From: Virgibacillus natechei
Lineage (GTDB): Bacteria > Bacillota > Bacilli > Bacillales > Amphibacillaceae
NCBI RefSeq assembly: GCF_026013645.1
Contig: NZ_CP110224.1
Coordinates: 3,286,001-3,350,000, forward strand
DNA length: 64,000 nt
Reading direction: 5' to 3'
In this document: positions 33,395 to 58,526 of the stretch, piece by piece
Numbering within the stretch: position 1 is the first letter of the stretch
Layout: each line of letters starts with the position of its first letter
The notes under the pieces: generated by a model
Database searches by the model: none
Told to the model about the DNA's origin: nothing
The model's input: only the letters and a program-made list of their open reading frames with translations
Translations under genes and position numbers: made by a program

Positions 33395-33540
33395 AAACAC
33401 ACCTACTCCATTTTAGTTGAAATCGAATTCACATTCTCATTTATTTTATCATACTTTGGGAAAATGTATATAAGGATGTTGTTGTTCTTTTTACTTTTTT
33501 GTGGAGGGTTAAACATTTGGTGGGTGGTTTTGATGGTAAA

Positions 33541-37088: not shown

Positions 37089-37128
37089 TTTAGTTTCACC
37101 CCCTGTCATTATATTTTATTACTATTAT

Positions 37129-37157: not shown

Positions 37158-37381
37158 TAGAGTTTGGTAGATTTTACAATTATTTTGCAAATATATGTCT
37201 GTTTTTGTCATTTTAATTAAAAATAATAACATTATCTTCATTTTTACAGTTTAATATATTCCTTATGATATAATACCTTAATTTAGGAATAACTAATGTT
37301 TAAAATAGATATTACTAGGAAATATTATAAAAGTATTATCTTATATTACCCTGGAGTTAATTAAATTGAGGAGAGTGCGAA

Positions 37382-38398: not shown

Positions 38399-38414
38399 GT
38401 AACTTTGACTTCTT

Positions 38415-38450
38415 AAAAAACAGAGATGAGCCACATGAGAGCCCATCTCT
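38415..38450 (-). terminator. Terminator after the amidase gene
   Basis: On the minus strand AGAGATGGGC pairs with GCTCATCTCT, followed by GTTTTTT. Confidence 0.85.
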
Positions 38451-38465
38451 TAAACGTAACTTATT

Positions 38466-41400: not shown

Positions 41401-41531
41401 TCACCGGTATTTTCTTCTGTGGCTTCTACATCGCCTGGTGGTACACCCTCGGTTGCTATTGCTACGTGTGGACTAAAGTGGAATAAGGAAAATACTAATA
41501 AGAATAGAATCATAGAATTTCTTACCTTCAC
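38466..41531 (-). CDS. Giant secreted wall hydrolase: ten PG-binding repeats plus N-acetylmuramoyl-L-alanine amidase
   Basis: Secreted protein of 1021 residues, sister of the 33591 protein with the same leader (MKVRNS...VFSLFHFSPH) and acidic linker (to about 132). Ten PG-binding repeats follow (about 134-840). The C-terminus is instead an Amidase_3 domain that cuts the amide between muramic acid and the stem peptide. Zinc and catalytic residues: His in IFLDPGHGGRDSG, Glu in LLEKNVVLD, His in FVSIHNNAF, Glu in ILLEYLFIDN. The start is GTG, after GGGAGGTGA. Paralogue with exchanged catalytic domain. Confidence 0.93.
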   Translation of the reverse strand: MKVRNSMILFLLVFSLFHFSPHVAIATEGVPPGDVEATEENTGEQGEVELEGEGTSDQTTGESGEAKKEEIPDNEVESTEQEEKPKSESENSTDEDTTGEHNDSDSGVDEETEDSEGQANEARILKNNINAGTPLYQDGDSGQHLLDLKEDLTTLGFANWSSPSQHYGSVTAGVVEDFQDYYDLPVTGIADTATQDKIADVLSPPYQSGDRGDPVVKLKEDLVELGFASWSNPSQYYGNVTADVVEDFQGAYSLTVDGIAGANTLAKIEEVLTQDPRYQDGDSGEHIVELKEDLTALGFANWSSPSQNYGSITADVVEDLQDYYNLPITGIADSTTRDKIADVLSPPYQSGDRGAPVVKLKEDLVELGFASWSTPSQYYGSITANVVEDFQEAYDLTVDGIADANTLTTIEEALSQDPRYQDGDSGEHIVELKEDLTALGFANWSSPSQYYGSITADVVEDLQDYYNLPITGIADSTTRDKIADVLSPPYQSGDRGDPVVKLKEDLVELGFASWSNPSQYYGNVTADVVEDFQGAYSLTVDGIAGANTLAKIEEVLTQDPRYQDGDSGEHIVELKEDLTALGFANWSSPSQNYGSITADVVEDLQDYYNLPITGIADSTTRDKIADVLSPPYQSGDRGAPVVKLKEDLVELGFASWSTPSQYYGSITANVVEDFQEAYDLTVDGIADANTLTTIEEALSQDPRYQDGDSGEHIVELKEDLTALGFANWSSPSQYYGSVTAGVVEDFQDYYNLSVTGIADSATLDKIAEALPPYQNGDKGDSVVKLKEDLTVLGFANWSNPTQFYGSVTAGVVEDFQASYGLPVTGIADQTTLNTIEDNIVKIFLDPGHGGRDSGGIGYGLLEKNVVLDIALEAANVLENQYLGVDVKLSRETDTFIELEDRAEMANGWGADYFVSIHNNAFNGSASGFESYIYNGGVSSNTSEKQNQMHQYLINELGVTDRGTKEANFSVLRNTHMSAILLEYLFIDNTVENTLLKQDNYRDWLGEITADAIAHSFDLGKR
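39430..41000 (-). repeat. 852-bp internal duplication in the amidase gene
   Basis: A block of four PG-binding repeats is duplicated with an 852-base offset (for example 39651 and 40503), nearly identical, including variants such as SPSQNYGS shared only between the two blocks. Confidence 0.85.
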
Positions 41532-41733: not shown

Positions 41734-43494
41734 TTATCTTTTTCGATTAATTAAACTTGTGATTTTTCTTAATGGTTTAGTAATTCGCCATGAACGGCTC
41801 TTTTGAATCGTTAAATATTTCTGTTCAAAGAACTTAATTTCTTGTACTGCATCCTTTTTCTCTTCTTCTAATTTTTTCTTTTCTTTAACAACATTATCCT
41901 TTTCTTTCTTTATCTTCACTTTTTGTCGTTTAAATGTTTCTTTTTCGCGTTTTAGCCTTGAAATATCTTGATTGAGACTTTCTATTCTATCTTCCACTTC
42001 TTGTTTTTGTTTTTTTAATTTATTATTTGACTTTTTTTCACTATTCAATGCAGCTTTAAGTTCAGCTTTTGATTCCCTTTGAATTTCAAATCCAATTTTC
42101 ACTGGTTTTTCCCAAGGATATTCTTCAACTTTATTCACTTTTGCATCCGCTGGCCCTTGATAGCATATATCTTTGAAATTATCTACCTTATCTTTGTCTG
42201 TACTTGCAACTACCACCATTGTTTTTCCATATTCGATTCTTTTTGTATAACCGTGCAATTGATATTGTAAAGCCTTCTTTCTTACCCAAGCTTTGTAACC
42301 TACTCCTGTTATTTCTCCATAGACAATATACTTTTTGCCATATGTTTTTTCTAATGAAGGAGGAGGTAAAACCTTCAACTGCTTCGTTGATATATTATTA
42401 AGTGGTGCTAATAAACTGTCAAAATCGAAATAAAGATTTGTCTTTCTTGAATTTATTGTTTCAGGAAAATAATAATCAATTATTGGCTTTATTACATCAC
42501 GAGCTTCTCCTTCCATTGGAAATAGATGTAGACCTAACATAGGCTTAGTGTTAATTTCAATTATAACTCCAGAGTTATTTTCCTTATCAACAATCATATC
42601 TAATCCACATATATCTAAACCTGGGACCGCCTGAGACGCCCTACTAGCCATATCTCTTAATTCATTAGTCAACTGATCGGTTACATCAATCGGGTCCCCA
42701 CCTGTAGAAACATTACTCTTGCTTCTTAGAAAAATTCTTTCCCCATCTTTTGGTATGCTTTCTAATTGATAACCTAGAGACTGAATTGAATTTAATACCT
42801 CTTTATCAATCTTAATAGTTTTTTTAGAAAGATTTGGATTAATCTTTTTCTCTTTATTTTTTAATGTTATTAACTCCTCAATGGTTTTTTTTCCATTTCC
42901 CGTCACATTTGCTGGAATTCTATTGACAGCACCTATTACTTCCCCATTAATAAGTAAAATGCGGTATTCTACCCCTGGTATATACTTCTCTACTATCACG
43001 TCTTGATAATTAAGGTCGTCACGTACATGAATTAAAGACTCTTTTAATTCTTCTTCGGAATTTATATTGGAGAATACTCCTTTTCCAGCATTTAAATTTG
43101 TGGGTTTTAGAACGACAGGGTATCCCATCCGTTTTGCATAGCTTAAAATTTCCGTGATGCTACAAATTACTTCAAATCTCTTTCCTTCTGGCACAGAAAC
43201 TCCCGCTTTTGTTAAATACCTTTTTGTTTCATCCTTATTCTCACATATTTTATCTGCTTCATTCGATAATTTATCTCCTTTAGATCCTTCAAATTTACTT
43301 TCTCTTCCCTTAAAATTTAAAGAATATCGGACTAACACTTTATTATCCATGTTGTCAATGTTAAAAAAGTTTATCGTTATACCTCGTCTCCATGCTTCCA
43401 ATGCAATAAAATACATACTAAGTTTATTTCCATACCCTTCTACAGGGACAGCGTATTGTAAATGTTTAAACCAATTTACGTTCTGCTTTGCCAT
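41734..43494 (-). CDS. ATP-grasp / acylphosphatase-like fusion protein, paralogue 1 (long coiled coil)
   Basis: A 586-residue protein without signal peptide. Residues about 1-90: family-specific region (LSMYFIALEAWRRGI). About 95-340: ATP-grasp domain like the amino-acid-ligating domain of cyanophycin synthetase (VVLKPTNLNAGKGVFSNI, RIPANVTGNGKKTIEELI, SNVSTGGDPIDVTDQL, VIIEINTKP with metal-binding Glu and Asn). Then an acylphosphatase-like domain (YGEITGVGYKAWV) whose catalytic Arg and Asn are replaced, and a charged coiled coil of about 100 residues ending in SRSWRITKPLRK. The ATG at 43494 has GGAGAT upstream. Substrate unknown; amide or peptide ligation on a wall polymer is inferred. Confidence 0.8.
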   Translation of the reverse strand: MAKQNVNWFKHLQYAVPVEGYGNKLSMYFIALEAWRRGITINFFNIDNMDNKVLVRYSLNFKGRESKFEGSKGDKLSNEADKICENKDETKRYLTKAGVSVPEGKRFEVICSITEILSYAKRMGYPVVLKPTNLNAGKGVFSNINSEEELKESLIHVRDDLNYQDVIVEKYIPGVEYRILLINGEVIGAVNRIPANVTGNGKKTIEELITLKNKEKKINPNLSKKTIKIDKEVLNSIQSLGYQLESIPKDGERIFLRSKSNVSTGGDPIDVTDQLTNELRDMASRASQAVPGLDICGLDMIVDKENNSGVIIEINTKPMLGLHLFPMEGEARDVIKPIIDYYFPETINSRKTNLYFDFDSLLAPLNNISTKQLKVLPPPSLEKTYGKKYIVYGEITGVGYKAWVRKKALQYQLHGYTKRIEYGKTMVVVASTDKDKVDNFKDICYQGPADAKVNKVEEYPWEKPVKIGFEIQRESKAELKAALNSEKKSNNKLKKQKQEVEDRIESLNQDISRLKREKETFKRQKVKIKKEKDNVVKEKKKLEEEKKDAVQEIKFFEQKYLTIQKSRSWRITKPLRKITSLINRKR

Positions 43495-43518
43495 TTTAAA
43501 CCATCTCCAATTCAGCAA

Positions 43519-43774
43519 TCTTATAGGAATAATTATTATTCCTATCGTTTTTGATAGCTTTGGTCTTTTTATTTAGAAAAAAAGGACTCGTATTTATACG
43601 TGTCCACAACAGCTTAACATTATCATTCCGAGACAGATCACTCTCATTAACATTTACAAAACTCCGGATCCTTATCCAAACTAAAAGTACCTACCTATTT
43701 CACATATATATTCTTAATTTATATATAAATTAAGGGTATTACTAAATAATTTAAACTAAACTTTACTAGCCCTT
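43519..43774. other. Intergenic region between paralogues 1 and 2
   Basis: 256 bases; contains the terminator of paralogue 2 (43576-43605) and an AT-rich stretch with a palindrome-like AATTTATATATAAATT. The terminator implies paralogue 1 has its own promoter here, not clearly seen. Confidence 0.5.
43576..43605 (-). terminator. Terminator after ATP-grasp paralogue 2
   Basis: On the minus strand GGACACGTA pairs with TACGAGTCC (one A-A mismatch), followed by TTTTTTTC. It lies 170 bases beyond the stop. Confidence 0.7.
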
Positions 43775-45364
43775 TTATTTGGACCTTATAAACCTTTTCA
43801 CTATATCTAATACATTCCTTAGAGGGGACGTGTACCTCCATAGTCTACTACCTTTTATCTGGCTATATCTTTTTCTGAAAAAATCTCTTTCTTTTTCAAT
43901 CTCTTCTTTTTCCTTTTCGATTTGCTTAACTTCTTCAATAGTTAAACTTCTATTGATTTCAAATCCTATCTTTATTGGTGAATGCCAATCCTGTTCAACA
44001 ACTTCTGTAACTTGGGATTTTTTATTACCTTCTAAACAAATACTTTTAAATTCACTTACTTCTTTTTCATCTGTTGATGCAACTACTACAGAAATATCAC
44101 CATTTCCCAGGTCTTCTGCAAATCCATGCATACGACTTAGTAATGCCTGCCTTTTAATCCATACTTTATACCCTACGTTTTGCACTTTTCCAGATATAAT
44201 ATATTTTTTTGCATATACCTTACCTACGGGAAGTGAAGACACCTCAACGGTTGTTGCTGTTCTGTTTTCCAAAGGTTCCAATATACTATTAAAGTCAAAA
44301 TAAAGATCAGATCTATCAATATCTTTCGTCTCAGGGAAATAATAATCAACTATTTCTTTAGGTAGATCCCGAGGTTTCCCTTGTACTGGGAATAAATGAC
44401 CACCTAGACCTGGCTTAGTATTAGCCTCTATAATTACTCCTGAATCATTTTCACTATTAACAATCATATCCATCCCACTTACAGTTAATCCAGGTATCGC
44501 GTTCGTGCCATCTATCGCAATTTGTTTTAATTCAGGTGATAACACATCAGTCAAGTCTACAGAGTCTCCTCCTGTAGAAAGATTACTGGTTAACCTCAAA
44601 GGTACAACTTCACCTTCTTTAGGTACACTTTTTAAGGTATAGTTATTTGAATGAAGCAAATCAATTACTGTTTTATCAATTTTTATATTCCTACTTTTTA
44701 AATGAGGATTTGCTTTCCGTTCATTATTTTTATTTCTTACTAATTCTCTAATCGTATCAACCCCATTACCGATTACATTTGCCGGAACTCTGTTAAGAGC
44801 GCCAACAACCTTATTATCAACGACAACAACCCGGTATTCATTTCCAGCTACATAAGTTTCTACCATAACCTCTAGATAATCTAGTTCATAACGAACATAA
44901 TTTAAAGCATCTTTAAAAGCGTCTAAACTATGAATATTAGAGAAGACACCTTTGCCCCCATTTGCATTTATTGGTTTTAATACTAAAGGGAACCCCAGTT
45001 CATTTGCGTAATCTATTATTTCTTTATCCTCGACATCTTCAGAAAAACTTTTCCCTTTTGGTATTGGAACACCAGCTTTTGATAGATATTCTTTTGTGAG
45101 ATATTTGTCGTCACAAATTTCGTAGGCCAAATCTGTAATCTTATCGCCTTTAGATGACTCAAACCGATGCTCTTTATCTTCGGAGCTAAGTGAGTATCTG
45201 ATTTTTAATTTATTTTCAGGATTGTCAATGGTATAAAACTTTAGCTTAAGCCCTCTTCTCCAACCTTCCAAAGCTATTGTATACATGCTTAATTTCTTAC
45301 CATATCCAGTAACTGGTACCGCATTTTTAAGATGCGGCAACCATTTAACTTCAGTTCCCTCCAT
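43775..45364 (-). CDS. ATP-grasp / acylphosphatase-like fusion protein, paralogue 2
   Basis: A 529-residue protein, same build as paralogue 1. N-terminal WLPHLKNAVPVTGYGKKLSMY, ATP-grasp with VLKPINANGGKGVFSNI, RVPANVIGNGVDTIREL and VIIEANTKPGLGGHLFP, acylphosphatase-like part SGKVQNVGYKVWI (catalytic Arg replaced by Lys, Asn by Asp), short helical tail ending GSRLWRYTSPLRN. AGGAGGAAAGAGCG precedes the ATG. The Glu-x-Asn metal motif is kept, so ligase activity is likely; acylphosphatase activity is not. Confidence 0.8.
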   Translation of the reverse strand: MEGTEVKWLPHLKNAVPVTGYGKKLSMYTIALEGWRRGLKLKFYTIDNPENKLKIRYSLSSEDKEHRFESSKGDKITDLAYEICDDKYLTKEYLSKAGVPIPKGKSFSEDVEDKEIIDYANELGFPLVLKPINANGGKGVFSNIHSLDAFKDALNYVRYELDYLEVMVETYVAGNEYRVVVVDNKVVGALNRVPANVIGNGVDTIRELVRNKNNERKANPHLKSRNIKIDKTVIDLLHSNNYTLKSVPKEGEVVPLRLTSNLSTGGDSVDLTDVLSPELKQIAIDGTNAIPGLTVSGMDMIVNSENDSGVIIEANTKPGLGGHLFPVQGKPRDLPKEIVDYYFPETKDIDRSDLYFDFNSILEPLENRTATTVEVSSLPVGKVYAKKYIISGKVQNVGYKVWIKRQALLSRMHGFAEDLGNGDISVVVASTDEKEVSEFKSICLEGNKKSQVTEVVEQDWHSPIKIGFEINRSLTIEEVKQIEKEKEEIEKERDFFRKRYSQIKGSRLWRYTSPLRNVLDIVKRFIRSK

Positions 45365-45541
45365 CGCTCTTTCCTCCTAAAATGTCTACTTCAATCTTAC
45401 ATAATTTATATATAATCTCGATTAAGAAGCTAACTACTTTTAAACTAACATCAACTATTTCCTATATAACAGGACATTACACGCTAAGATTAACAGATCT
45501 ATTTCAGAATTTAAATTCCAATTATTACCATCATAGCATTG

Positions 45542-47152
45542 TTAGCGTGACCTCACTTCTCTTATTTTACCTCCTAAATAACGAAGAGGTGATGTTAATT
45601 TCCAAATACGGCTTTTCTGAACCATTTTTATTCTATTTCCAATCCGATTTTGTTCTTTTTCAACCAACTTAAGCTCTTTTTTTATGTCCTGTATCTTAAT
45701 TTCCAACTCTCTAACACTCATAGAGTTATATTCATTCATTAGTTCAAAGCCTATCTTGATTGGAAGTTTCCAATCTTCTTCGGAAATACTCGAAATTTGA
45801 GATTGTAGTATTTTGTGATTTAGTATAGTCAAAAATTCGTCAGCATCTGCCTGGGTCTCGCCAGCTATTACAACTTCTATATTCTCATCATCAATCCTTC
45901 TAATAAAGCCATTTAAATTACTTTCAAACACTTTTCTTTGAAGCCATTGATGATATCGTATAGGTTCTATATCACCTGAAATTAAATACCTTTTTGCTAC
46001 AAGTTTCTTATTAATGAGTGGTGCAACTACTACCTCTCTTGTCGTTCCACCTGCTAAAGTATCTTGAATACTTCTAAAGTCAAAATAAACATTTGCATCC
46101 TCAGTAGATATTCCTTTTGTTTCAGGAAAATAAAAATCAATAATTTTTTTTGGTATATCCTTTGCTTTACCCTCCACAGGGAATAAATGGGATCCTATAC
46201 CGGGTCTAGTATTAAGTTCTAGTACCATGCTTGTATCATTTTCTTTATTAATTATCATATCAACACCGCAATGCGTTAATCCTGGTATAGCTTTCACTGC
46301 ATTAATTGCAATACCTCTTTGTTCAGTTGTTAGTTCTGAAGTAACTTCTATGGGGTCTCCCCCAGTTGTGATGTTGCTGGTTTTTCTAAGGAAAATTCTT
46401 TCTCCTGCTTTAGGTATGCTATCCAAGCTATACCCTGCAGCTTGAATTAGCTTTTTGACTTCCGAATCAACTTTTATAGGCCGAAAATATAAATGGGGAA
46501 TATTCTTTCTAAATTGGTTTTTAGCTTCAATTAATTTATTAATTGTATTTATGCCATCTCCAACTACATTGGCAGATCTTCTTTGTACGGCTCCTATAAC
46601 CTTGCCTTCAAGCACGTAAACGCGTACCTCATCTCCCATTACAAATTGCTCAACCACTACATTTTTAAATCCCAACTCATTTCGATTATAAGCCAACGCA
46701 TTCTTTAGTTCTGTGTTAGTTTTAATATTGACGATTACTCCTTTACCACCGTAACCATCAATTGGTTTTAACACTACTGGAAAGTTAATTGATTGCCCAA
46801 ATTTAATTATTTCTTCTTCTGTTTTATCTGAATCAAATCCTCTTCCCTGGGGTACTGGTATTCCAGAATTATTTAAGCGCATTTTTGTCAAACTCTTGTC
46901 GTCACAGATTGTAATTGCCTCAACAGAATTCTTATCCCCACCAGCGCCATCAAAATGATGAACTCTATCTTTATAACTCAAGGAGTATTGAATATCAGGT
47001 TTATTGTTGTTATTATATTTATAAAACTTTAGGTTTAATCCTCTTCTCCATCCTTCTAAAGCTATTGTATACATACTAATCCTATTTCTTTGTGCTTCAA
47101 TAGGTATTGTATTTATAAGATGTGGTAACCAACCTTTTTGAGTATATCCCAC
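45542..47152 (-). CDS. ATP-grasp / acylphosphatase-like fusion protein, paralogue 3
   Basis: A 536-residue protein of the same build: GWLPHLINTIPIEAQRNRISMY, ATP-grasp with VVLKPIDGYGGKGVIVNI, RSANVVGDGINTINKLIE and VLELNTRPGIGSHLFPV, acylphosphatase-like SGDIEPIRYHQWL (catalytic Arg replaced by His), tail KSRIWKLTSPLRYLGG. The GTG at 47152 is chosen because GGAAGGAAG lies seven bases upstream; a TTG six codons earlier has no such site. Confidence 0.78.
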   Translation of the reverse strand: MGYTQKGWLPHLINTIPIEAQRNRISMYTIALEGWRRGLNLKFYKYNNNNKPDIQYSLSYKDRVHHFDGAGGDKNSVEAITICDDKSLTKMRLNNSGIPVPQGRGFDSDKTEEEIIKFGQSINFPVVLKPIDGYGGKGVIVNIKTNTELKNALAYNRNELGFKNVVVEQFVMGDEVRVYVLEGKVIGAVQRRSANVVGDGINTINKLIEAKNQFRKNIPHLYFRPIKVDSEVKKLIQAAGYSLDSIPKAGERIFLRKTSNITTGGDPIEVTSELTTEQRGIAINAVKAIPGLTHCGVDMIINKENDTSMVLELNTRPGIGSHLFPVEGKAKDIPKKIIDFYFPETKGISTEDANVYFDFRSIQDTLAGGTTREVVVAPLINKKLVAKRYLISGDIEPIRYHQWLQRKVFESNLNGFIRRIDDENIEVVIAGETQADADEFLTILNHKILQSQISSISEEDWKLPIKIGFELMNEYNSMSVRELEIKIQDIKKELKLVEKEQNRIGNRIKMVQKSRIWKLTSPLRYLGGKIREVRSR

Positions 47153-47210
47153 TAAAATACTTCCTTCCAATTCTTTTAAAAATGTTTAACGGATTTCCAA
47201 TGCACCCATT

Positions 47211-48814
47211 CTAATCACGTTTAAATGTTTTAACAACATTACGTAATGGCAAAGTATATCTCCAACTTTTACTTTGTTCAATACTATCTAATTTTTTCTT
47301 TGTTTGTTTTTTTTGGTGAACCAACTCTTTATTTTTTTCCTTTTCTGCATTAAGTTTCTTTCTCACTTTCTTTATATGTGAAGATGTATTTCTTATTTCA
47401 AAACCCATTTTAACAGGTTTATTCCATTCCTCTTCGTCAACTGTTTTTACGTTCATTTTTTTTGGTGTGTCTTCCTTAATTGTATCTATAAACTGTTGGA
47501 CTCGTTCTTTATCTCCAGCTACCACAATAAAAACATTTTTGTTTTTAAGATTTTTCACATAACCATTTAACCTTCTGTCAACCGCTCTATCATAAACCCA
47601 TTTCCTAAAACCGACTCGCTGTACTTTTCCTGAAACTGTCATTTTTTTAATTACCGAATTTTCACTTGGCATCGGTGGTACAACAACTTCTTCTACAACT
47701 CCACTTTTAAGAAATTTTACAATGCTTTCATAATTAAAGTAAAATTTGCTAATTTCATTTTTAGTATTATCACAAATAGACTCAGGGAAATAATAATCAA
47801 CTATTGCCTTTGAAATATTTCTTGCTTTCCCCACTACAGGAAATAAGCTACCGCCAATATTTGGTCTAGAGTTAAGTTCGAGCACATAATTGGTTCCCTT
47901 TTCTCTGTCAATCATTATATCCACACCACAAACCGGTAACTCTGGTAGAGCCTTTACTGCTTTAACAGCAACACACTTGTCTTCCGGTGTTAATTCGTCA
48001 GTTACTTCCACTGTGTCTGCTCCAGCAGAAGCAATAGTACTTTCATTTAAAAATACTCTTTCCCCCTTATTTAGAATTGTTTCTAGCAAATAGTCTTTTT
48101 CCCTAAGAAATTCTTTCATCTCAGCATTAATTTTAATTTGAGAACCGCCAACATGTGGGTTTTTTTCCTGTTACTGTTTTTTAGTTCTATTAATTCCTTT
48201 ATTGTATGTTTCCCATCTCCAATAACATTAGCAGCAATTCTTTTAAATGCGCTTACTACTTGATCTCCAACAACAAATAACCGGGTATCTTCTCCAGTAA
48301 CTTGCTGCTCAACAATAATTTCCTTATAGCCCTTATTCCCGCGTAAATGCTTCAAATTTTCGGAAAATGTTTCTTCATCATAAATATTAGTGGTTACACC
48401 GATCCCCAAACTTGCACTTACAGGCTTAATTACTAATGGGTATTCAAGGGTTTTAGCATAATTAATAATTTCATCATCCTCATTTTCCCCACTAAAACTT
48501 CTTCCTTGAGGAGTAGGTATATCCGCTTTTAACAAATAATCTTTAGTATTTTTTTTGCTTCTAGTGATGTTTCTTGTTTCTTTTGGAACAAATTCCGCTA
48601 AAGATAATTGAAATTTTATTTCTCTTTCTTCATTACTTAATGAATATCTAATTTTCACTCGATTTTTAATATATTTCTTAAAAAACTTTAATTTTAACCC
48701 TCGTTTCCATCCCTCTAATGCGACAGAAAACATCGTTGCGTTAGCGCCATAGGCACTTTCAGGTACTATTTCTATAAGTTGATCCAGTGATTTATCTTCT
48801 ATACCTTTCATCAT
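47211..48814 (-). pseudogene. ATP-grasp / acylphosphatase-like fusion protein, paralogue 4, frameshifted in an A7 run
   Basis: Two abutting frames together match the other paralogues: N-terminal 233 residues (SMFSVALEGWKRG-type start, VIKPVSASLGIGVTTNI, RIAANVIGDGKHTIKELIEL) and C-terminal 302 residues (FLNESTIASAGADTVEVTDE, VLELNSRPNIGGSLFP, SGKVQRVGFRKWV, tail QSKSWRYTLPLRN). They join at a run of seven A on the minus strand (48160-48166). An eighth A restores KNPHVGGSQIKIN, which fits the other copies. The acylphosphatase part keeps the catalytic Arg (VGFR) and Asn (GYVKN), unlike all other copies. May be a pseudogene, a phase-variable gene, or a read error. Confidence 0.8.
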
Positions 48815-48856
48815 AATCATTCCTTTTTCAGAAAATAGTATTTACTTAGGGAGCTT

Positions 48857-50488
48857 TTAGGAACGAAACAAGCTTTTAACAGCACCGGTGAATTTTCTAA
48901 CTAGGTAAGTGCTCTTCCATATACGGCTATTTAACATATTCTCATATTGTCGGTCAATAAATTTCTTCTCTTTTTTTGCTTGGATTAATTCTTCTTGGAG
49001 TTTTTTTATATTAACTACGAGTTCTTTGCTTTCCTCTTGTATATCAAATCCTAATTTAACCGGTTTATCCCAAATATCCTCGTTAATTCGTACCACTTCA
49101 GCTAAATTAGTTTCGTGAATAGTATCTTTAAATTGGTTCACTGATAATTCATCAAATCCTGCAATTATTACTTCAATATCATTATTATCAAGTTTATTTA
49201 TAAAACCTATCAAGTTTTGCTCTATAGCTTGTATTCGGAGCCAGTGATGATATTCAAGGGTTTGCACATCTCCGGAAACCGTATATTTTTTTCCAAAAAA
49301 ATTCTTTTGTTGAAGAGATACTACTTCAGTTATTACAGCTGTTTTATTAGCTAAAGGTGACAATGCTTCTCTTAAGTCAAAATAAACCTTTGGTATTATT
49401 TTGGGGGTGTTTTTTGTTCCTGGAAAATAATAATCTATAATTGCAGCAGGAATATTACGCGGCTCACCTTTCATAGGATATAAAAGAGATCCTATCTGTG
49501 CTGTTGGATTGAGCTCCAGCACGACTCCAGATTCTTCGACAGGTTTATTGGAATGTACAATAAGATCGACAGCTCCGTGATTTAAACCAGGCACTGCATA
49601 CAGTGCCTTAACTGCAGTGTCCTTGATTGCTATGGGCAATTCATCTAAAACGTCTATCGGGTCACCGCCTAAGGAAATATTACTCTTTTCACTTAGGTAA
49701 ATTTGTTCATCTTTTTTCAGTATACTATTTATGGTATATCCTGTTTTGTCAATAATATTTTCCGTCTCATAACCTATATTAATCGGGCAACTGATAAGGC
49801 GGGGATTCATACTTCTTTCTTCATTTTTATTGGCTATTAATGTCTCTATAGAACTTATTCCATCCCCGACAACGTTAGCAGGAATTCTATTTATTGCACC
49901 TACTACCTTATTATCTACAACATAAATACGATATTCTTTTCCTGGAATGTATTGTTCTACTATCACGTCTTTATACTTTAGTTCGGACCGTACATAAGTA
50001 AGAGCATAATCCAAGTCTTTATCACTTTGAATATTTGTAACTATACCTCTACCAAAGCTTCCGTCAGTCGGTTTAATTACAACCGGATAGCCTATAGAAG
50101 AAACATAATTTCGAATAACATCGTCTGGCTGATCCTCTTCAAATTGCTTCCCTTGCGGAACAGGCACACCTTTCTTCTGCAATTCTTGCTTCGTTAGTTC
50201 CTTATCTTTTCCAATATCCACCGCTTCATTACTTACTTTATCCCCTCTAGTTCTGAAGAAATAATGTGTTTTCTCTTTAGAACTAAGCGAAAAAAGCTGA
50301 CCAGGTTTATCGACAAACCATGTATTCATTTCACTGAATTTTTCGGAATCCTTTACATGCCATCTGAGTTTTAGACCCCTTCTCCAACCTTCAAGGGAAA
50401 CTGCATAAGCATCAAGTAAATTACCATGGGCATCTGAAACAATTTCACTGGATAGATGCGGCAGCCACTCTGTGTTATTCTCTTCCAT
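48857..50488 (-). CDS. ATP-grasp / acylphosphatase-like fusion protein, paralogue 5
   Basis: A 543-residue protein of the same build: EWLPHLSSEIVSDAHGN, ATP-grasp with VVIKPTDGSFGRGIVTNI, RIPANVVGDGISSIETLI, SNISLGGDPIDVLDEL and VVLELNPTAQIGSLLYP, acylphosphatase-like SGDVQTLEYHHWL (Arg replaced by His), tail NSRIWKSTYLVRK. TTTAGGAGGAAAATCCG precedes the ATG. It stands next to the TupA-like gene and is probably the first of the array to be transcribed after the polymer genes. Confidence 0.8.
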   Translation of the reverse strand: MEENNTEWLPHLSSEIVSDAHGNLLDAYAVSLEGWRRGLKLRWHVKDSEKFSEMNTWFVDKPGQLFSLSSKEKTHYFFRTRGDKVSNEAVDIGKDKELTKQELQKKGVPVPQGKQFEEDQPDDVIRNYVSSIGYPVVIKPTDGSFGRGIVTNIQSDKDLDYALTYVRSELKYKDVIVEQYIPGKEYRIYVVDNKVVGAINRIPANVVGDGISSIETLIANKNEERSMNPRLISCPINIGYETENIIDKTGYTINSILKKDEQIYLSEKSNISLGGDPIDVLDELPIAIKDTAVKALYAVPGLNHGAVDLIVHSNKPVEESGVVLELNPTAQIGSLLYPMKGEPRNIPAAIIDYYFPGTKNTPKIIPKVYFDLREALSPLANKTAVITEVVSLQQKNFFGKKYTVSGDVQTLEYHHWLRIQAIEQNLIGFINKLDNNDIEVIIAGFDELSVNQFKDTIHETNLAEVVRINEDIWDKPVKLGFDIQEESKELVVNIKKLQEELIQAKKEKKFIDRQYENMLNSRIWKSTYLVRKFTGAVKSLFRS

Positions 50489-50527
50489 CGGATTTTCCTC
50501 CTAAAACGCTGGTCCATTCTTTATAAT

Positions 50528-51976
50528 TTATTTAGTAAGACTTTCAATAAACGTTTTGTATTCTTCAAACTGTTTCCCATTCAATAAATCATTCGTTAGG
50601 CGTCCCTGTGCTTCTATGAAATAGTCCCCCAACCACTGATCGGTGAGTTGATCAAAGTCATCGTAGTTTCCCGGCTTTGGTGTGAATTCTCCGAATACCA
50701 AACCATCAGCTGACCTCAGGAAATCTATTCGTATAAATGGGGCTGGTATTTTAGCACTGATGGATGAAGCGAGCTCGATCTCGTCTGCTGAAATGCCTTT
50801 ACCTTTAAATAGATCTTCATCATACTTGCCTGTTCGAATATGCTCACCCGTAGTGGTCCACCAACAGTATTTCATTTCCGGAACACGAGTGATTTCCAAT
50901 ATGATTCCAACTTTTCCATAGAAACAGTAGAATTTTATATCACTTGCAGGACGTTTCTCCTGTTTATTTTCAAAAATAAGCTCTTCGATAAACCATTCAT
51001 CATTCATTACCCAGTCTGACGTGAGGTCTGTCTTCATCGTTTCAATAAGGGAATCCCAGCTGTCAATCGTTTTCGATCGCTTTATATCTATTATATCATT
51101 TAATGAATAGACAAGATATACACCACGAGAACCAGCGCCATCCGCTGGTTTTATGACAATACCTTCTTCTTTAGGAATTTCCGTGTGCTTATATTTTTTA
51201 TCTGAAGTCCATGGTTTTCTTACACCAAGCCTGTCCATGAATGTATAGGCGTCTTGCTTTTCATCCAATACCCATTCCGGCAAGGATTCTGTCAATTGTT
51301 TTTGTCTGATCCGCATATTTAGGCTTGCTCGGAAAGAAGCGGCTTGTTTTAATGGGATACTTTCATCATCTAACCCTGCTCGCATCATAAATTCAGGGAT
51401 TTCTTCTATTTTTAATCCTGAAAGTATGTTCGAGTAGATCAAGTTTCGGTATTCCGTTTTTTCATTCATAAACAGTCTGGCTGCGTAATGTAATGCATGG
51501 GTATAATTGGTCTCTTGTTGTTTCTTCTTTTGAACCGCTTCATCTATAAAGCCCATTAGTTTTCCTTCATCTTTTGTATCTTTCATGACCTCGTGTACTT
51601 GATTGCTATCCAGTTTGCGGTCATCGAACATGGCCTCATTTAATTGTTCTCTTGTTGCGTACAGTTCTTTTTGTGTTTCCTGAAGATTTGCTTCCAGTTC
51701 TTTAATATATTGTTTGCTTTCTGCTGTTTTTGAAAAAAGTTTATTCCATTTTCGTAATGGCTTTGAATATCTCCATGTACTGCTGTTATCTATTTGTTTG
51801 GTTTTCTTTTCATGGGTTTTTCTTTCTTTTTCTGCCTTTGTTATCGCAGCTTCTTTATTGATTAGTAATTTTACTAATTCCTGCTCTTTTTCATGTTCTG
51901 ACTGGTGTGGAGGCTGTGATGAATGATCTTCATCTTGCTTTTCCTGCTCATTATTCACTTCGTTATTTGTCGTCAC
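50528..51976 (-). CDS. TupA-like ATP-grasp protein (teichuronopeptide type)
   Basis: A 482-residue cytoplasmic protein. The N-terminal 100 residues are hydrophilic and coiled-coil with STWRYSKPLRKWNKL, the tail motif seen in its neighbours. The C-terminal half is a TupA-like ATP-grasp domain: KPADGAGSRGVYLVYS, DEWFIEELI, SDIKFYCFYGKVGIILE, FIRIDFLRSADGLVFGEFTPKPG. TupA is needed for teichuronopeptide (polyglucuronate plus polyglutamate) in alkaliphilic Bacillus. The GTG at 51976, after GGGGGTGG, starts one base beyond the stop of the upstream glycosyltransferase, so they are coupled. Confidence 0.8.
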   Translation of the reverse strand: MTTNNEVNNEQEKQDEDHSSQPPHQSEHEKEQELVKLLINKEAAITKAEKERKTHEKKTKQIDNSSTWRYSKPLRKWNKLFSKTAESKQYIKELEANLQETQKELYATREQLNEAMFDDRKLDSNQVHEVMKDTKDEGKLMGFIDEAVQKKKQQETNYTHALHYAARLFMNEKTEYRNLIYSNILSGLKIEEIPEFMMRAGLDDESIPLKQAASFRASLNMRIRQKQLTESLPEWVLDEKQDAYTFMDRLGVRKPWTSDKKYKHTEIPKEEGIVIKPADGAGSRGVYLVYSLNDIIDIKRSKTIDSWDSLIETMKTDLTSDWVMNDEWFIEELIFENKQEKRPASDIKFYCFYGKVGIILEITRVPEMKYCWWTTTGEHIRTGKYDEDLFKGKGISADEIELASSISAKIPAPFIRIDFLRSADGLVFGEFTPKPGNYDDFDQLTDQWLGDYFIEAQGRLTNDLLNGKQFEEYKTFIESLTK

Positions 51977-51977
51977 G

Positions 51978-54116
51978 TCAACCACCCCCTTTTGCATCAC
52001 TTTGTACGTATGGGTTATCGTCCACGAACCAATTTTCTAGCTGTGAGGCGTATGCTTCCCTATCTGTAACTGCATCTGCCCAATTGTCACTGGCTAGTTT
52101 AATCGATTTTAACTCCCTTGTATGGTATTTCTTCAGTGTTTCTCGTATCTGTAGGTTTAATGGATACCATTTCCCTCTTTTGCCAAAATAAGCCACGAGA
52201 TGACGTGCGCACCGTCTCAGGTTGTACCCGTTTGGTGGTTGATCCACGACTACTCGAACCATCCTTGGAGCCACATTCGGAATGTACGTTTGCTGTTCCT
52301 GCAAGATTTGCGGATGTTTAACAATGAGAATATCGCAAGTAATATGCTCGCCATAAACGAGCAATGGAACGTTGTTTGCATCCATCGCTTCCCGTAGTTG
52401 CGGATTTAGCTCTTCTTGCATCGAAAAATCATACCTTGCCATTTGGATGAGGCCTGTACGGAGTCCCATTTTGGTTTGTGTTTTCATTTCTTCAATGGTA
52501 GATAAATGAGTTTCGTCTGCCAATCTAAAATCAGAGACAATCACGACATCAAAGTGGCGACTTCCGGATGGCTTGATTTCCCGGTTCGTCCACATCGGTT
52601 CAGGTACCGGAAAAGGTCTTCTCCCTTGAGGATAAGAATAATGTAATGTATCCGCCTTTTGATGATATTGCCTGTGCACTTCCGCATATTCTTTGCGTAC
52701 GCCCTTTAAAAATCCATTATAGCCAAACGCTGAGCTTCCTGTAAGGGAACCCATCGACTGTCTCGGGAATGATAATGGGCCGGTTTTAAGATCGATCATA
52801 CTTTTTTCACCGAAAACAGCTATTATACGGCGTTTGAATTCACTATCTGCAGCAAATCGGACACTGTCCCAGTATCCAATTTCTTCTGTTACAGGAACAC
52901 GCCTGAACATGAGGGAAGACATATTGGAAAAAATATAATTTCCCGGTGTCCCCCTGCGATAGACTTTAAGTTCTTCCGTTAATCGTGTTTGTTCTGAAGT
53001 GTTTGCGATGATTTGTTTGTTTTTTATTAAATGCTTGACTTGTGTTTCAATTTTTTCTGCATGGGACCAATCATCTGCATCATTGATCGTTACAAACTCA
53101 CCAGTTGCTGCTTTCAGCGCAATATTACGAGCAACATATGGACCACTATTAACTGGTGTTGTCAATAGTTTTACTCTGGAGTCTTTTTTCATGTATGCCT
53201 TTATTACATCCACTGTATTATCAAGGCTGCAATCATCGACGACAAGTAGCTCAAGATTTTGCCAGGTTTGTGACAGCATAGACTCAATCGCTGTTCCTAT
53301 CCCCTTTTCGGCATTGTATGCAGGGATAATAACAGATACTTTCGGTCCTTCTTCTAGAGTTTTGCCTATAGACTTTGTTGTGAGATCTTCATAAGTTGCC
53401 GTTTCTTCTTCGCTTGAAGCAAAAAAAACTGGTTGAATGCCATATACGTCCAAGGATTTATTCATCCATTTCACGCGTTCTTTCAGTGTTTCCTCTAGGT
53501 TAGCTGCTGCCAAATATAAATCCGGATGCTTTTGCAGTGCTAATGCTGCTTTTATAACGCGTTTTCCCGCCTCTATTTCATGCAACCTATCAAGGCATTC
53601 CGCTTTTATGATGGCTGCTTTTCTTAGATAATCCTGATCTTTTCCCCCACTAATTGCGGCAGGAATATATTCCAGAGCTTGACGCGCACCATCCTTGGTG
53701 TATTTATTGGCATGCCATAAGGTGAGTTCCCAGGCGATTGCTTGTTTGACATATCGACTTTCTGTTTCTTTATATAAACTTTCCAGATCAGTTAAAACTT
53801 TCTCCGTAAATCCTAAATCATATAGTTGGTATTTATATTTTTTTAATTGATTTGCTGCTTTTTTTCGTTTGTATGATTTACTATAGACTTGTTTTATATT
53901 TCTTCTTCCGAGCATATAAGCGACAGTTGCTCTTATGGAACTTTTAAATTTTTTTGGCAATCCCATAAGACGCCAAATTTTGCTTTGTTTAACAGCATTA
54001 AAGGATCCCTGCATTTCGTTTAATTTTTTTCTCGACGTTTCATTTTGTGCTTCTTTTTCTTTAAGTTCGTTGTCTAATTTAGTTAGTCGATCCTTCAAGT
54101 CGGCAGTCCTATTCAT
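51978..54116 (-). CDS. Large GT2 glycosyltransferase with helical N-terminal domain, copy 2
   Basis: A 712-residue protein. N-terminal coiled coil ending KQSKIWRLMGLPKKF, then a helical repeat-like domain (to about 230; ELTLWHANKYTKDGARQALEYI), a GT2 domain (VSVIIPAYNAEKGIGTAIES, LLVVDDCSLDNT, FVTINDADDW with the DxD-type motif), and a C-terminal domain of about 250 residues (FDVVIVSDFRLADETHL) of unknown type. It transfers a sugar from a nucleotide donor. The ATG at 54116 overlaps the end of the paralogous upstream gene by eight bases. Confidence 0.85.
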   Translation of the reverse strand: MNRTADLKDRLTKLDNELKEKEAQNETSRKKLNEMQGSFNAVKQSKIWRLMGLPKKFKSSIRATVAYMLGRRNIKQVYSKSYKRKKAANQLKKYKYQLYDLGFTEKVLTDLESLYKETESRYVKQAIAWELTLWHANKYTKDGARQALEYIPAAISGGKDQDYLRKAAIIKAECLDRLHEIEAGKRVIKAALALQKHPDLYLAAANLEETLKERVKWMNKSLDVYGIQPVFFASSEEETATYEDLTTKSIGKTLEEGPKVSVIIPAYNAEKGIGTAIESMLSQTWQNLELLVVDDCSLDNTVDVIKAYMKKDSRVKLLTTPVNSGPYVARNIALKAATGEFVTINDADDWSHAEKIETQVKHLIKNKQIIANTSEQTRLTEELKVYRRGTPGNYIFSNMSSLMFRRVPVTEEIGYWDSVRFAADSEFKRRIIAVFGEKSMIDLKTGPLSFPRQSMGSLTGSSAFGYNGFLKGVRKEYAEVHRQYHQKADTLHYSYPQGRRPFPVPEPMWTNREIKPSGSRHFDVVIVSDFRLADETHLSTIEEMKTQTKMGLRTGLIQMARYDFSMQEELNPQLREAMDANNVPLLVYGEHITCDILIVKHPQILQEQQTYIPNVAPRMVRVVVDQPPNGYNLRRCARHLVAYFGKRGKWYPLNLQIRETLKKYHTRELKSIKLASDNWADAVTDREAYASQLENWFVDDNPYVQSDAKGGG

Positions 54117-56079
54117 AATTACCAGCTCTATTCTGCCAGTTCTCATCAGCCAAATTGATAGCCTTGAGTTCATCTTGATGATTTGTAATTAACGATTCTC
54201 GGATGCTTGAATGTAATGGATACCAGATTCCGGGGTTGTCAAAATATGCCTCCAACTGGCTAAGACAGTGTTCCACGTTGTAAAATCTCTTTTCTCCTTG
54301 TGTTGGCAATTGATTTACGATCACATGGATATTGCCTGCATCTACCTGAGGGATATATTGTTGCCAATCCTCCAGAACAACCGGGTTTATAATATGCAGG
54401 TCCTTCGTGGTGATTTTCTCCCCATAGACAACCATTTGGATTTGATCACCATCAAGTAAATTTCGCACATCTTTATCGATAGTATTTTCTATGTCTAAAT
54501 CATACTGGTACATTTGAATTAATCCGAGACGAATGCCCGCTGCTTTCTGCCTTTGTATTTCTTCGATCACCGTAGAATTTTCTTCTAAGATTCGAAAATC
54601 AGAAGCAATAATTGCGTCAAAAGACCGTCTGCCTGAAGGCTTGTTCTCCCTATTTGGCCACATTGGTTCAGGTACTGGGAATGGCCGTTCATCTTGAGGA
54701 TACGGGTAGTAAAACGTGTCAGTACGAGCATGATGAAATTCAAGACTTTCTACATATTCCTTGCGTACTCCCATGAAAAATCCATTATAGCCAAATGCTG
54801 AACTGCCAGTTAAGGAGGCTACCGACTGCCTTGGCAATGATAATGGTCCAGTGTTCAAATCAACGTAGCTATTTTTTCCGAAAGCCTTGATCAGGCGGCG
54901 CTTAAATTCACCATCTGCAGCAAAACGAACACTGTCCCAGGATCCAAGCTCTTGGACGACTGGTTCACGCCGGAACATTAAGGAGGACATATTAGGGAAT
55001 ATATAGATTCCTGGCGTTCCTCTGCGGTATAATTTCAGGTCTTCGGTTAACCTCGCGTGTTCGGAGGTGTTTGCTATTGTCTCCTTGTTCTCTATTAAAT
55101 GGGTGACCTGTTTTTCAATTTTTTCTGCATGGGACCAATCATCTGCATCATTGACCGTTACATATTCTCCAGTTGCCTCTTTTAATGCGATATTTCTGGC
55201 TACATAAGGCCCGCTGTTTGTTGGGGTTGAAAGAAATATGACCCTGGAATCCTTTTGACTGTATTCTTTAATCACTTCTGCAGTGTTATCCGGGCTACAG
55301 TCATCTACCGCCAGCAGTTCGATATTCTGCCACGTTTGGTTCAGAATGGATTCAATGGCAATACGGACTCCTGATTCTGCATTAAAAGCTGGTAATATCA
55401 CAGATACTTTTGGTCCTTCTTCTATTTTCTTATCTATCGGCTCTGTTTTTAAATCGTCATAGGTTACCGTTTCATTGTTTGTTGAAAATAGAATAGGTTG
55501 AATGTTATAGACGTTTAATGCTTGGTTGATCCATTCTACACGTTCATCTATGCTTTCTTCCAAGTTTGCTGCTGCCATATACAAGTCGGGATGCTTTTGA
55601 TTTTCCAGAGATTTTGTGATAATACGTTTTCCTTCTTCGATTTCATGTAGCATTTCGTGGCATTCTGCTTTTAAAATTGCTGCTTTTCTTAACTGGTTCT
55701 GGTCTTTTTCTCCGTCGATTGAAGGATCAATATATTCAAGCGCTTGACGTGCCCCGTCCTTGGTATATTTATTAGCATGCCATAATGTGAGTTCCCATGC
55801 AGCAAGTCGCTTCATATAAGAATCTCGACTTGCGGAATAGACCGTCTCCAACTCCGTGAGTCCTCTTTCAGTAAATCCAAGATTATAGAGGTGGTGTTTT
55901 ATCCGTTTCAGCTTTTGCCTTTGGGCTTGTTTTTTGCCATTTTTCGTGATTTGCTTTAATTTTTCCTTCTGTTTGTCTGTAAACAAATTGGAAAGGAATG
56001 CTTTCTGTTTTTCAGACAGAAAAGTATATAAAAACCAATCCATTGAGCCGGTAATCATCTTCTTTATTAGACGAAACAA
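54109..56079 (-). CDS. Large GT2 glycosyltransferase with helical N-terminal domain, copy 1
   Basis: A 656-residue paralogue of the downstream gene: helical domain (ELTLWHANKYTKDGARQALEYI is identical), GT2 domain (VSVILPAFNAESGVRIAIES, LLAVDDCSPDNT, YVTVNDADDWSHAEK) and the same C-terminal domain (FDAIIASDFRILEENST). It lacks the coiled coil and WR motif. The start is a TTG, seven bases after AGGTGG. Tandem duplication followed by divergence; both probably act in the same polymer pathway. Confidence 0.83.
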   Translation of the reverse strand: MFRLIKKMITGSMDWFLYTFLSEKQKAFLSNLFTDKQKEKLKQITKNGKKQAQRQKLKRIKHHLYNLGFTERGLTELETVYSASRDSYMKRLAAWELTLWHANKYTKDGARQALEYIDPSIDGEKDQNQLRKAAILKAECHEMLHEIEEGKRIITKSLENQKHPDLYMAAANLEESIDERVEWINQALNVYNIQPILFSTNNETVTYDDLKTEPIDKKIEEGPKVSVILPAFNAESGVRIAIESILNQTWQNIELLAVDDCSPDNTAEVIKEYSQKDSRVIFLSTPTNSGPYVARNIALKEATGEYVTVNDADDWSHAEKIEKQVTHLIENKETIANTSEHARLTEDLKLYRRGTPGIYIFPNMSSLMFRREPVVQELGSWDSVRFAADGEFKRRLIKAFGKNSYVDLNTGPLSLPRQSVASLTGSSAFGYNGFFMGVRKEYVESLEFHHARTDTFYYPYPQDERPFPVPEPMWPNRENKPSGRRSFDAIIASDFRILEENSTVIEEIQRQKAAGIRLGLIQMYQYDLDIENTIDKDVRNLLDGDQIQMVVYGEKITTKDLHIINPVVLEDWQQYIPQVDAGNIHVIVNQLPTQGEKRFYNVEHCLSQLEAYFDNPGIWYPLHSSIRESLITNHQDELKAINLADENWQNRAGNYE

Positions 56080-57655: not shown

Positions 57656-57686
57656 GTTAAAAACCCTCTTTTTTATAGTTGATGGT

Positions 57687-58469: not shown

Positions 58470-58526
58470 AGATACAAATGACACCGCCTGTTTCTAACTA
58501 TGACGCTACTAGTAGATTTTAATTTA

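Follow-up and report, generated by a model that had tools for sequence, protein, structure and literature searches.

Functional context of the tandem fusions

What does a row of tandem ligase-like genes make when it lies among genes for a sugar polymer? The question is raised by a 64,000-nucleotide stretch of the Virgibacillus natechei genome (contig NZ_CP110224.1, positions 3,286,001 to 3,350,000; hereafter the window), which carries an array of five tandem ATP-grasp/acylphosphatase fusion copies on the minus strand (positions 41734–50488; Table 1). The likely product of the tandem ligase block is the acidic peptide portion of a polymer of the cell wall.

In each copy, a cyanophycin-synthetase-like ATP-grasp module is followed by an acylphosphatase domain (PF00708) and then a C-terminal tail; the tails align among the copies and are predicted to be helical in the two that were modelled. 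PF00708 is above the Pfam cut-off in all five copies (E 1e-9 to 1e-22), and the whole genome has one other such domain, in a 98-aa frame. The ATP-grasp modules of the four intact copies match two NCBIfam models for cyanophycin synthetase at E 2e-62 to 1e-74, although these matches fall far below the cut-offs set for full-length synthetases. A first-pass annotation had described five consecutive genes of the same rare build lacking a Mur-ligase partner domain, and indeed no Mur-ligase family occurs among the Pfam matches (E ≤ 0.1) of any copy. All five copies share the build, but the fourth is not one intact gene: it comprises two overlapping open reading frames, one copy in two frames (a frameshift), both halves of which fall in one clade of the family tree. 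This leaves four of the five copies intact.

Upstream of the array lie, in order, the galU-like gene, ugd, the Wzm/Wzt exporter with the glycosyltransferases, and the TupA-like gene; two peptidoglycan-binding wall hydrolases follow it. Pfam confirmed the neighbours named in the earlier annotation (TupA-like PF14305, GT2/GT4, Wzm/Wzt and Ugd). Judged by Pfam family, Ugd, the GalU-like protein and the GT2/GT4 proteins would provide UDP-glucuronate supply and polymer glycosyltransferases of putative specificity. The nearest homologue of the TupA-like protein (P0121, 81% identity) is named by NCBI for teichuronopeptide biosynthesis.

Table 1. Array and neighbouring features, with window coordinates.
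Feature	Position	Strand	Remarks
Fusion class C1, 594 aa	41734..43518	-	Long tail; acylphosphatase Arg->Lys, Asn->Arg
Fusion class C2, 529 aa	43775..45364	-	Acylphosphatase Arg->Lys, Asn->Asp; AF2 mean pLDDT 87.1
Fusion class C3, 542 aa	45542..47170	-	Acylphosphatase Arg->His, Asn->Arg
Split class C4, C-terminal half	47211..48119	-	ATP-grasp end, acylphosphatase with both catalytic residues, tail
Split class C4, N-terminal half	48116..48820	-	ATP-grasp start
Fusion class posA, 543 aa	48857..50488	-	Directly after tupA; acylphosphatase Arg->His, Asn->Lys; fold predicted intact
TupA-like ATP-grasp amidoligase	50528..52000	-	PF14305, E 7e-72; tail-like motif in N-terminal part
GT2 glycosyltransferase GT2a	51978..54173	-	Pfam
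GT2 glycosyltransferase GT2b	54109..56079	-	Pfam
Wzt-like ABC exporter ATPase	56108..57715	-	Two ATPase domains; Pfam
Wzm-like ABC-2 exporter membrane subunit	57687..58484	-	Pfam
GT2 glycosyltransferase GT2c	58527..59303	-	Pfam
GT4 glycosyltransferase GT4a	59305..60453	-	Pfam
GT4 glycosyltransferase GT4b	60472..61602	-	Pfam
Ugd (UDP-glucose/GDP-mannose dehydrogenase family)	61798..63105	-	Presumed UDP-glucuronate source; Pfam
GalU-like nucleotidyltransferase	63118..63999	-	Open to window edge
Wall amidase (Amidase_3)	38466..41531	-	Ten PG_binding_1 stretches; comparable genes seen repeatedly next to arrays
Wall glucosaminidase	33591..37109	-	Ten PG_binding_1 stretches and SH3 domain
YheC/D-type ATP-grasp, PF14398	37642..38398	+	Split into two ORFs
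PF00953 lipid-carrier sugar-phosphate transferase (TagO/WecA type)	32309..33400	-	Possible start of linkage unit

Recurrence and partner genes

The build had been called rare, a description that does not hold: the fusion is present in 34 of 159 genomes of the host's bacterial family. Many salt- and alkali-loving bacteria have comparable arrays next to genes for sugar polymers and export, and we compared 53 Bacillota loci (L007–L058 and L070, leaving out the Bacillota MAG L059); the counts are of loci, not species, with a contig or genome shared by L026/L040, L015/L018 and L044/L052. Two or more fusions occur in 48 of the 53. The neighbourhood search suggested earlier places the arrays with envelope-polymer genes, as TupA-like genes occur in 42 loci and Wzt in 36, and the order Wzm-Wzt-GT2b-GT2a-TupA-fusions-hydrolases recurs in many. 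A TupA match is absent from the retrieved DNA of 11 loci, five of which are shorter than 15 kb. YheC/D-type ATP-grasp homologues adjoin the arrays in 20/53. Because of the profile E-values and the recurrence in other genera, the array is not a chance effect.

Partner genes in relatives provide clues to the substrate. PgsA/CapA (PF09587) is found in 24 of the 53 loci. Proteins of 717–744 aa matching CapA occur in 7 type I loci, most with TupA as their best match in the window, and both CapA-matching proteins scanned against Pfam are CapA-TupA fusions. Halomonas has an ATP-grasp-CapA-ATP-grasp protein and Nesterenkonia a CapA-ATP-grasp protein, and enolase-superfamily (epimerase-type) domains are fused to ATP-grasp modules, with or without acylphosphatase. 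An Asp/Glu racemase (PF01177) lies inside the array of a congener and in 3 of 28 type II loci, whose arrays hold posA, posB and further fusions. Together, the PgsA/CapA proteins, the few racemases and the CapA-TupA fusions of other arrays point to acidic amino acids as putative substrates. Comparison of the window with the congener gave identities of 80–97% for the glycan half and 41–58% for the array, as if the cassette had been exchanged.

Classes and conserved residues

The earlier description of the copies as diverged is borne out, the others being 37–49% identical to the first; judged from the family tree, the copies are old paralogues forming orthologous classes. Class posA is the next gene after the TupA-like gene in 39 of 42 cases, these 42 genes being a different set from the 42 TupA-bearing loci. 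The catalytic loop reads N-P-T-A-Q in most posA/posB members and N-[TSA]-[RK]-P in most of C1–C3, and is more varied in C4. The ATP-grasp triad, which we take to be metal ligands as is general for this family, is retained by 192 of 194 members, a set chosen by ATP-grasp score and thereby favouring kept ATP-grasp residues. The equivalent of TeCphA1 R309 is kept in all 194, whereas that of R458, assigned to the substrate alpha-carboxylate (residue roles from an excerpt of PMC9427784), is Arg in 7 and Gly in 144, and that of H267 is His in none (0/194). Since the R458 and H267 equivalents are not kept, the amino acid used by the array ligases cannot be inferred from CphA. In the fold comparison the top match is an Asp- and primer-bound structure of cyanophycin synthetase 1, with cyanophycin synthetase and GshF as the nearest enzyme folds.

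The acylphosphatase domain is less conserved. Arg and Asn, presumably its catalytic pair, are both present in 34 of the 178 members with a detectable domain (34/194 in all) and in 0/69 posA/posB members; one or both are changed in 144/178. In the window, one or both are changed in four of the five copies, and only the split copy keeps both. A strict regular expression found tails in 13/195 fusions, and was replaced by a less stringent one run against shuffled controls; as the latter also matches a conserved N-terminal W-R-R-G motif in 133/195 fusions, it is not tail-specific alone.

Proposed function and alternatives

We give a somewhat better than even chance to the array being a cassette that makes the peptide of a teichuronopeptide-like wall polymer, with TupA priming a glucuronate carboxylate and the fusions lengthening an acidic peptide chain. 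Glycosyltransferases would build a glucuronate-containing glycan in the cytoplasm from UDP-sugars that Ugd and the GalU-like enzyme supply. Next, the TupA-like ligase would activate a glucuronate carboxylate and attach the first amino acid, after which the CphA-type ligases of the array would activate the C-terminal carboxylate of the growing chain, adding Glu or Asp in turn, possibly as D-forms in some relatives, with fusion classes perhaps specialized for early versus later addition steps. Wzm/Wzt would export the polymer, and the wall hydrolases may open the wall for it. The acylphosphatase-like domain of most copies could be a binding or docking module, no longer an enzyme; one copy per array often keeps the catalytic residues. 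Gene content and order, the classes, the kept and changed residues, the partner genes of relatives and the divergence pattern come from the sequences compared; what the enzymes join, how it is linked, in which order they act, how the product is attached to the wall and what the tail does are inferred.

Support for the cassette comes from the conserved gene order, the orthologous classes, the kept ATP-grasp residues, the partner genes of relatives, the fold match to cyanophycin synthetase 1, the amide-forming precedent of Cj1438C and the posB-class member of the teichuronopeptide species Halalkalibacterium halodurans, where a review infers a system of this type. On the other side, the racemase is present in few loci and CapA in under half, 11 of the 53 loci show no TupA match in the retrieved DNA, and a canonical pgsBCA-ggt operon lies elsewhere in the host genome, separate from the array; poly-glutamate is therefore possibly made there. 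The specialized amino-acid ligations proposed in the first-pass annotation are supported in part: envelope-gene context, CapA and racemase partners, CapA fusions and old classes favour them, whereas the window's own array is without CapA and racemase, one of its five copies is split, and the acylphosphatase residues are changed in the other four. Only tentatively do we extend the cassette to a position-ordered line of ligases that writes a defined acidic peptide on the wall glycan. TupA would prime, posA act next, and later classes add or switch residues (D- where a racemase is present), with docking through the helical tails; the copy with an active acylphosphatase might edit or end chains by acyl-phosphate hydrolysis, and whole cassettes would pass from strain to strain and genus to genus, leaving the type of wall polymer to be set by its peptide rather than by its sugar.

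It is also conceivable, if rather unlikely, that no polypeptide is made and that each class amidates uronic-acid carboxylates along the glycan with one amino acid or amine. Such decoration has a precedent in Cj1438C of the Campylobacter capsule (PMC11800379, in excerpt) and would suit distinct fusion classes with differing catalytic loops, but the modules resemble CphA and GshF, which extend peptide C-termini, and the CapA proteins and CapA fusions of relatives suggest a poly-amino-acid. Those CapA/PgsA and racemase partners would also suit a poly-acidic peptide secreted free of the glycan, as another kind of poly-glutamate capsule. We regard this as improbable: the array adjoins TupA and glycan genes, no CapB/PgsB or CapC match was obtained among the scanned locus proteins of the window, and the host already possesses the separate pgsBCA-ggt operon.

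That the product stays in the cytoplasm, be it a storage peptide, an osmolyte dipeptide or a compound like glutathione, is very improbable; the nearest enzyme folds and the long loci L019, L021 and L022, whose retrieved DNA holds none of the sought glycan or export neighbours, speak for it, but most arrays adjoin such genes (TupA 42/53, Wzt 36/53) and the copies have no Mur domain. Less credible still, despite the PF00708 matches and the automatic NCBI names, is that the genes encode acylphosphatases of acyl-phosphate turnover, as both catalytic residues occur in 15/15 stand-alone and 2/2 long (763-aa frame) acylphosphatase-domain proteins of related genomes, unlike the fusions; the NCBI label is probably misleading. 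Weighed and rejected for the array were acylphosphatase enzymes, a pathway to storage or glutathione-like compounds, and canonical poly-glutamate synthesis.

With the peptide-making cassette as the preferred reading, the locus supplies ordered candidate ligases for TUP-type peptide synthesis across about 25 named Bacillota genera by our count. It hints that polyamides bound to the wall can be made by ATP-grasp enzymes without PgsBCA, and that the peptides of wall polymers vary by cassette exchange.

Comparison with known systems

Among the matches listed from the open-licence PMC literature, no title or abstract opening described the fusion or the array. The array shares with PgsBCA/CapBCA the CapA/PgsA-family proteins that occur in relatives' arrays or are fused there to TupA or ATP-grasp modules, but its ligases are ATP-grasp rather than Mur-type enzymes. 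The small amines that decorate the Campylobacter capsule are ethanolamine or serinol. Cj1438C from the Campylobacter jejuni capsule shares the TupA-like ATP-grasp fold and the glucuronate carboxylate target; its TupA-like domain, joined to a glycosyltransferase, forms an amide at the glucuronate C6 carboxylate (PMC11800379, in excerpt). It differs in serving capsule decoration, and the excerpt mentions no array of CphA-like ligases.

Cyanophycin synthetases CphA1/CphA2 (7wae, 7txv, 8fxi) have in common with the fusions the ATP-grasp G module, metal triad and acyl-phosphate Arg, besides being the best fold match. The fusions differ in carrying an acylphosphatase-like domain and helical tail instead of the C-terminal Mur-ligase M module, and in not keeping the Arg458 and His267 equivalents.

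Teichuronopeptide (TUP) is linked to alkaliphily. The TUP system of Halalkalibacterium halodurans C-125 shares with the window a TupA-like gene, uronate precursor genes and a glucuronate polymer with a proposed acidic peptide. The review excerpts, that of PMC3815933 included, do not identify the peptide synthetase of TUP, and excerpts of PMC2824669, PMC4431377, PMC4453477 and PMC12457358 add nothing on it; the 2013 review (PMC3815933, in excerpt) infers an unidentified system in Bacillus halodurans, such as an L-PGA synthetase of the ATP-grasp type. A posB-class fusion (P0120) is encoded by this species, which gives presence in the species rather than position, and its best homologous copy in the genomes searched is 74% identical.

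Organization and neighbourhood of the array

The window (G000:C1:3286001–3350000, in a 3.87-Mb single-contig genome) carries five acylphosphatase domains, each preceded in its protein by a cyanophycin-synthetase-like ATP-grasp module and followed by a tail. Four fusion copies are intact (594, 529, 542 and 543 aa), and the fifth is divided between two overlapping ORFs with one half each; the array of five consecutive fusion genes described in the first-pass annotation thus stands, with one correction for the split copy. The neighbours named there (a TupA-like gene, glycosyltransferases, an ABC exporter and ugd) are all present upstream on the same strand, in a set comprising a galU-like gene, ugd, two GT4 genes, one GT2 gene, wzm, a two-ATPase wzt, two long GT2 genes and the TupA-like ligase. 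On its downstream side the array is followed by a pair of wall hydrolases, both with ten peptidoglycan-binding stretches, and by a TagO/WecA-type transferase.

Coordinates of features in the window and in related loci (L-numbers denote extracted loci)
Location	Strand	Feature
41734–50488		Array of five acylphosphatase domains with ATP-grasp modules and tails
48116–48820 and 47211–48119		Split fifth copy
33591–41531		Amidase and glucosaminidase wall hydrolases, ten PG_binding_1 stretches apiece; repeats look very similar within each protein
37642–38398	+	YheC/D-type ATP-grasp gene in two overlapping ORFs; a single 333-aa ORF in congener G153
L007:13441–14470		YheC/D-type homologue of Lentibacillus sp. 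CBA3610, likewise in two pieces
L101:187–3405		Just past the window's right edge: second UDP-sugar dehydrogenase and arylsulfotransferase (ASST) gene, adjoining the polymer locus
L102:6866–12158 (G000:C1)		Beyond the window: Mur-ligase-type PgsB-like gene, CapC, CapA and gamma-glutamyltranspeptidase
L009:11685–13394	-	569-aa protein, weak LANC_like and C5-epimerase matches below cut-off; proteins of comparable length adjoin arrays in L010, L011, L013 and L014
L021:3181–4566		Lacicoccus ATPgrasp_ST (PF14397) ligase on one side of the fusion array, with the C-terminal tail motif of the fusions
L021:13658–15064		ATPgrasp_ST ligase on the other side
L060:14832–17603		Halomonas, inside ligase array: enolase-superfamily (MR_MLE) domain fused to ATP-grasp

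A neighbourhood search for the fusion, suggested in the first-pass annotation, was scored by best match to the window proteins. Among 53 Bacillota loci, a TupA-like protein occurred in 42, Wzt in 36, the glycosyltransferases GT2b and GT2a in 35 and 34, and Wzm in 27; at least two fusions were present in 48 and at least three in 41. Restricting the count to the 43 loci that span 15 kb or more gives 37 with TupA and 27 with a PG-binding wall hydrolase. Six of these 43 lacked a TupA match, of which L049, L054 and L056 carry Wzt, and L019, L021 and L022 gave none of the sought neighbours. The ORF following a stand-alone TupA-like gene belongs to class posA in 39/42 cases; in its place L008 has a short fusion ORF, L040 a copy that had been removed as a duplicate, and Nesterenkonia L065 a different gene.

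Distribution and paralogue classes

Genome searches with A2, a profile of the fusion, gave E values below 1e-190 in 34/159 genomes from the GTDB family, a total that includes the genome of the window, and in 2/3 genomes of the window's genus; all 159 gave some match, non-carriers reaching at best 1e-69, to ATP-grasp proteins. At E ≤ 1e-100, A2 matched in 21/397 genomes of an order sample, and P0120, a fusion protein, in 21/35 genomes of another family. In a taxonomically named scan that gave 545 matches, the best 80, from 64 loci, were mainly from halophilic or alkaliphilic genera of Bacillota, together with Halomonas, Nesterenkonia, Leucobacter, a Balneolales MAG and a Parcubacteria MAG. Outside Bacillota, the acylphosphatase domain was detected in Halomonas/Nesterenkonia loci L061, L062 and L063, Leucobacter and the Balneolales MAG, and not in L060, L064–L066 or the Parcubacteria MAG.

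Judged by the tree classes and the two array types that they define, the array copies are old, diverged paralogues rather than recent tandem duplicates, in agreement with the earlier description of five diverged copies. In a FastTree phylogeny of 196 rows, window copy 48857 falls in the posA clade (41 members from 41 loci, each first in its array; support 0.986), whose sister group posB has 28 members from 28 loci, each second in its array. The branch uniting exactly posA and posB has support of 0.18, rising to 0.98 once three more members join. IQ-TREE analysis of 73 sampled rows gave SH-aLRT values of 100 for posB, 97 for posA+posB, 99 for C3, 99 for C1 and 96 for C2, with posA at 93 without L034 and 53 with it. 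C4, with 45 rows from 34 loci, is less tightly defined (support 0.965), and the other 35 rows form no clade. Type I arrays, posA-(C4)-C3-C2-C1 with variations, occupy 18 loci (the window, Lentibacillus, Evansella, Alkalicoccus and others); type II arrays, posA-posB-others, occupy 28.

Between the window and congener G153, whose array is type II with CapA and a racemase, identity is 80–97% from GalU to TupA, 58% for posA, 41–44% for the nearest matches of C3, C2 and C1, and 41–48% for the wall hydrolases beyond the array. Relative to two Lentibacillus, C2 is 75–77%, TupA 56–57% and posA 58–60% identical, the last no closer than to the congener. This divergence pattern is consistent with exchange of array cassettes. 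On the TupA tree, in which 13 of 42 rows are type I, a minimum of seven switches of array type is needed, and on the Wzt tree (9 of 34 rows type I) a minimum of four; these are raw counts, and some of the branches are weak.

Active sites and the shared tail

The 194 full-length members, of 420–719 aa, were selected for an ATP-grasp score of 250 bits or more, a choice that favours kept ATP-grasp residues. Within this set, D299, E313 and N315 (43775 numbering), the metal ligands in this family of enzymes, occur together in 192/194, and K87, K130 and R178 in 194/194. From the catalytic Asn, posA/posB mostly read N-P-T-A-Q, versus mostly N-[TSA]-[RK]-P in C1–C3. R178, R192, N261 and S263, kept in 194, 184, 172 and 177 of 194, respectively, align with R309, R323, N394 and S396 of the cyanophycin synthetase TeCphA1, to which a passage in PMC9427784 assigns roles in binding acyl-phosphate and aspartate; equivalents of TeCphA1 R458 and H267 are not kept.

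The acylphosphatase domain is detectable in 178/194 members. Of these 178, 34 carry both its Arg and its Asn, a combination seen in 0/65 posA/posB members with the domain (0/69 posA/posB overall). Both residues are kept in the controls from related genomes, comprising 15/15 stand-alone and 2/2 long acylphosphatase proteins, with fusion rows set aside. Of 42 arrays with at least three full-length members, 25 have exactly one both-residue copy, 16 (including the window, its split copy left out of the count) have none and one has two. Shuffling the labels gives expected numbers of 15.7 arrays with a single such copy and 5.2 with at least two (P 0.002–0.003, or 0.004–0.006 with shuffling inside classes, in both cases uncorrected for relatedness). 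Predicted models of 43775 (pLDDT 87.1; top PDB matches, cyanophycin synthetases) and 48857 (pLDDT 87.4) both show a beta-alpha-beta-beta-alpha-beta pattern in this domain, and the fold is therefore predicted to be retained even where the catalytic residues are missing.

The tail pattern W[RK]x4[LIVM][RK] is found within the C-terminal 60 residues of 111/195 family members (2.6 expected from shuffled sequences) and 7/26 YheC/D-class proteins (0.1 expected), and in the first 130 residues of 16/54 TupA-class proteins (0.6 expected). In the same C-terminal stretch it is present in 9/323 other ORFs (1.5 expected), among which are several pieces of ATP-grasp or fusion genes, and in 1/34 ORFs of the glucosaminidase class; it occurs at the N-terminus of 2/38 GT2a proteins (0.5 expected) and was absent from GT2b, GT2c, Wzm and Wzt in the same scan. 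In 133/195 family members the pattern additionally fits W-R-R-G, a conserved stretch close to the N-terminus. The shared tail may be a docking element.

Partner genes and comparison with known systems

A recurring gene of ~350 aa within other arrays encodes PgsA/CapA (PF09587, E 1.5e-69 in L028 and 8e-73 in the congener), with matches in 24/53 Bacillota loci. CapA occurs in 7/18 type I loci, each time within a 717–744-aa protein (the two checked in Pfam are CapA-TupA fusions), and in 16/28 type II loci, as a stand-alone gene in 15 of the 16. Halomonas L061 is arranged as ATP-grasp-CapA-ATP-grasp, and Nesterenkonia L063 as CapA-ATP-grasp. An array gene of ~240 aa encodes an Asp/Glu racemase (PF01177, E 7e-35 in the congener), present in 3/28 type II and 0/18 type I loci and in Nesterenkonia L064. 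Besides the Halomonas L060 gene, proteins P0283 and P0284 join an enolase-superfamily domain to ATP-grasp and acylphosphatase. As to the proposed amino-acid ligations for an acidic polymer, these partners in relatives' arrays point to acidic amino acids; the window's own array contains neither CapA, racemase nor enolase-superfamily partners.

Overall, the interpretation of a teichuronopeptide-like polymer is strengthened and sharpened, its chemistry being predicted. Because a canonical pgsBCA-ggt operon lies elsewhere in the same genome, the organism may make two polyamides. Teichuronopeptide is described in a section of the Horikoshi review as poly-gamma-L-glutamate plus polyglucuronic acid, tied to pH homeostasis. 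According to a passage in the Ashiuchi review (PMC3815933), B. halodurans has neither a pgs nor a cap operon, and an unidentified system, e.g. an ATP-grasp L-PGA synthetase, is inferred there. P0120, which bears the NCBI name Halalkalibacterium halodurans, is a posB-class fusion whose ten best matches are all posB.
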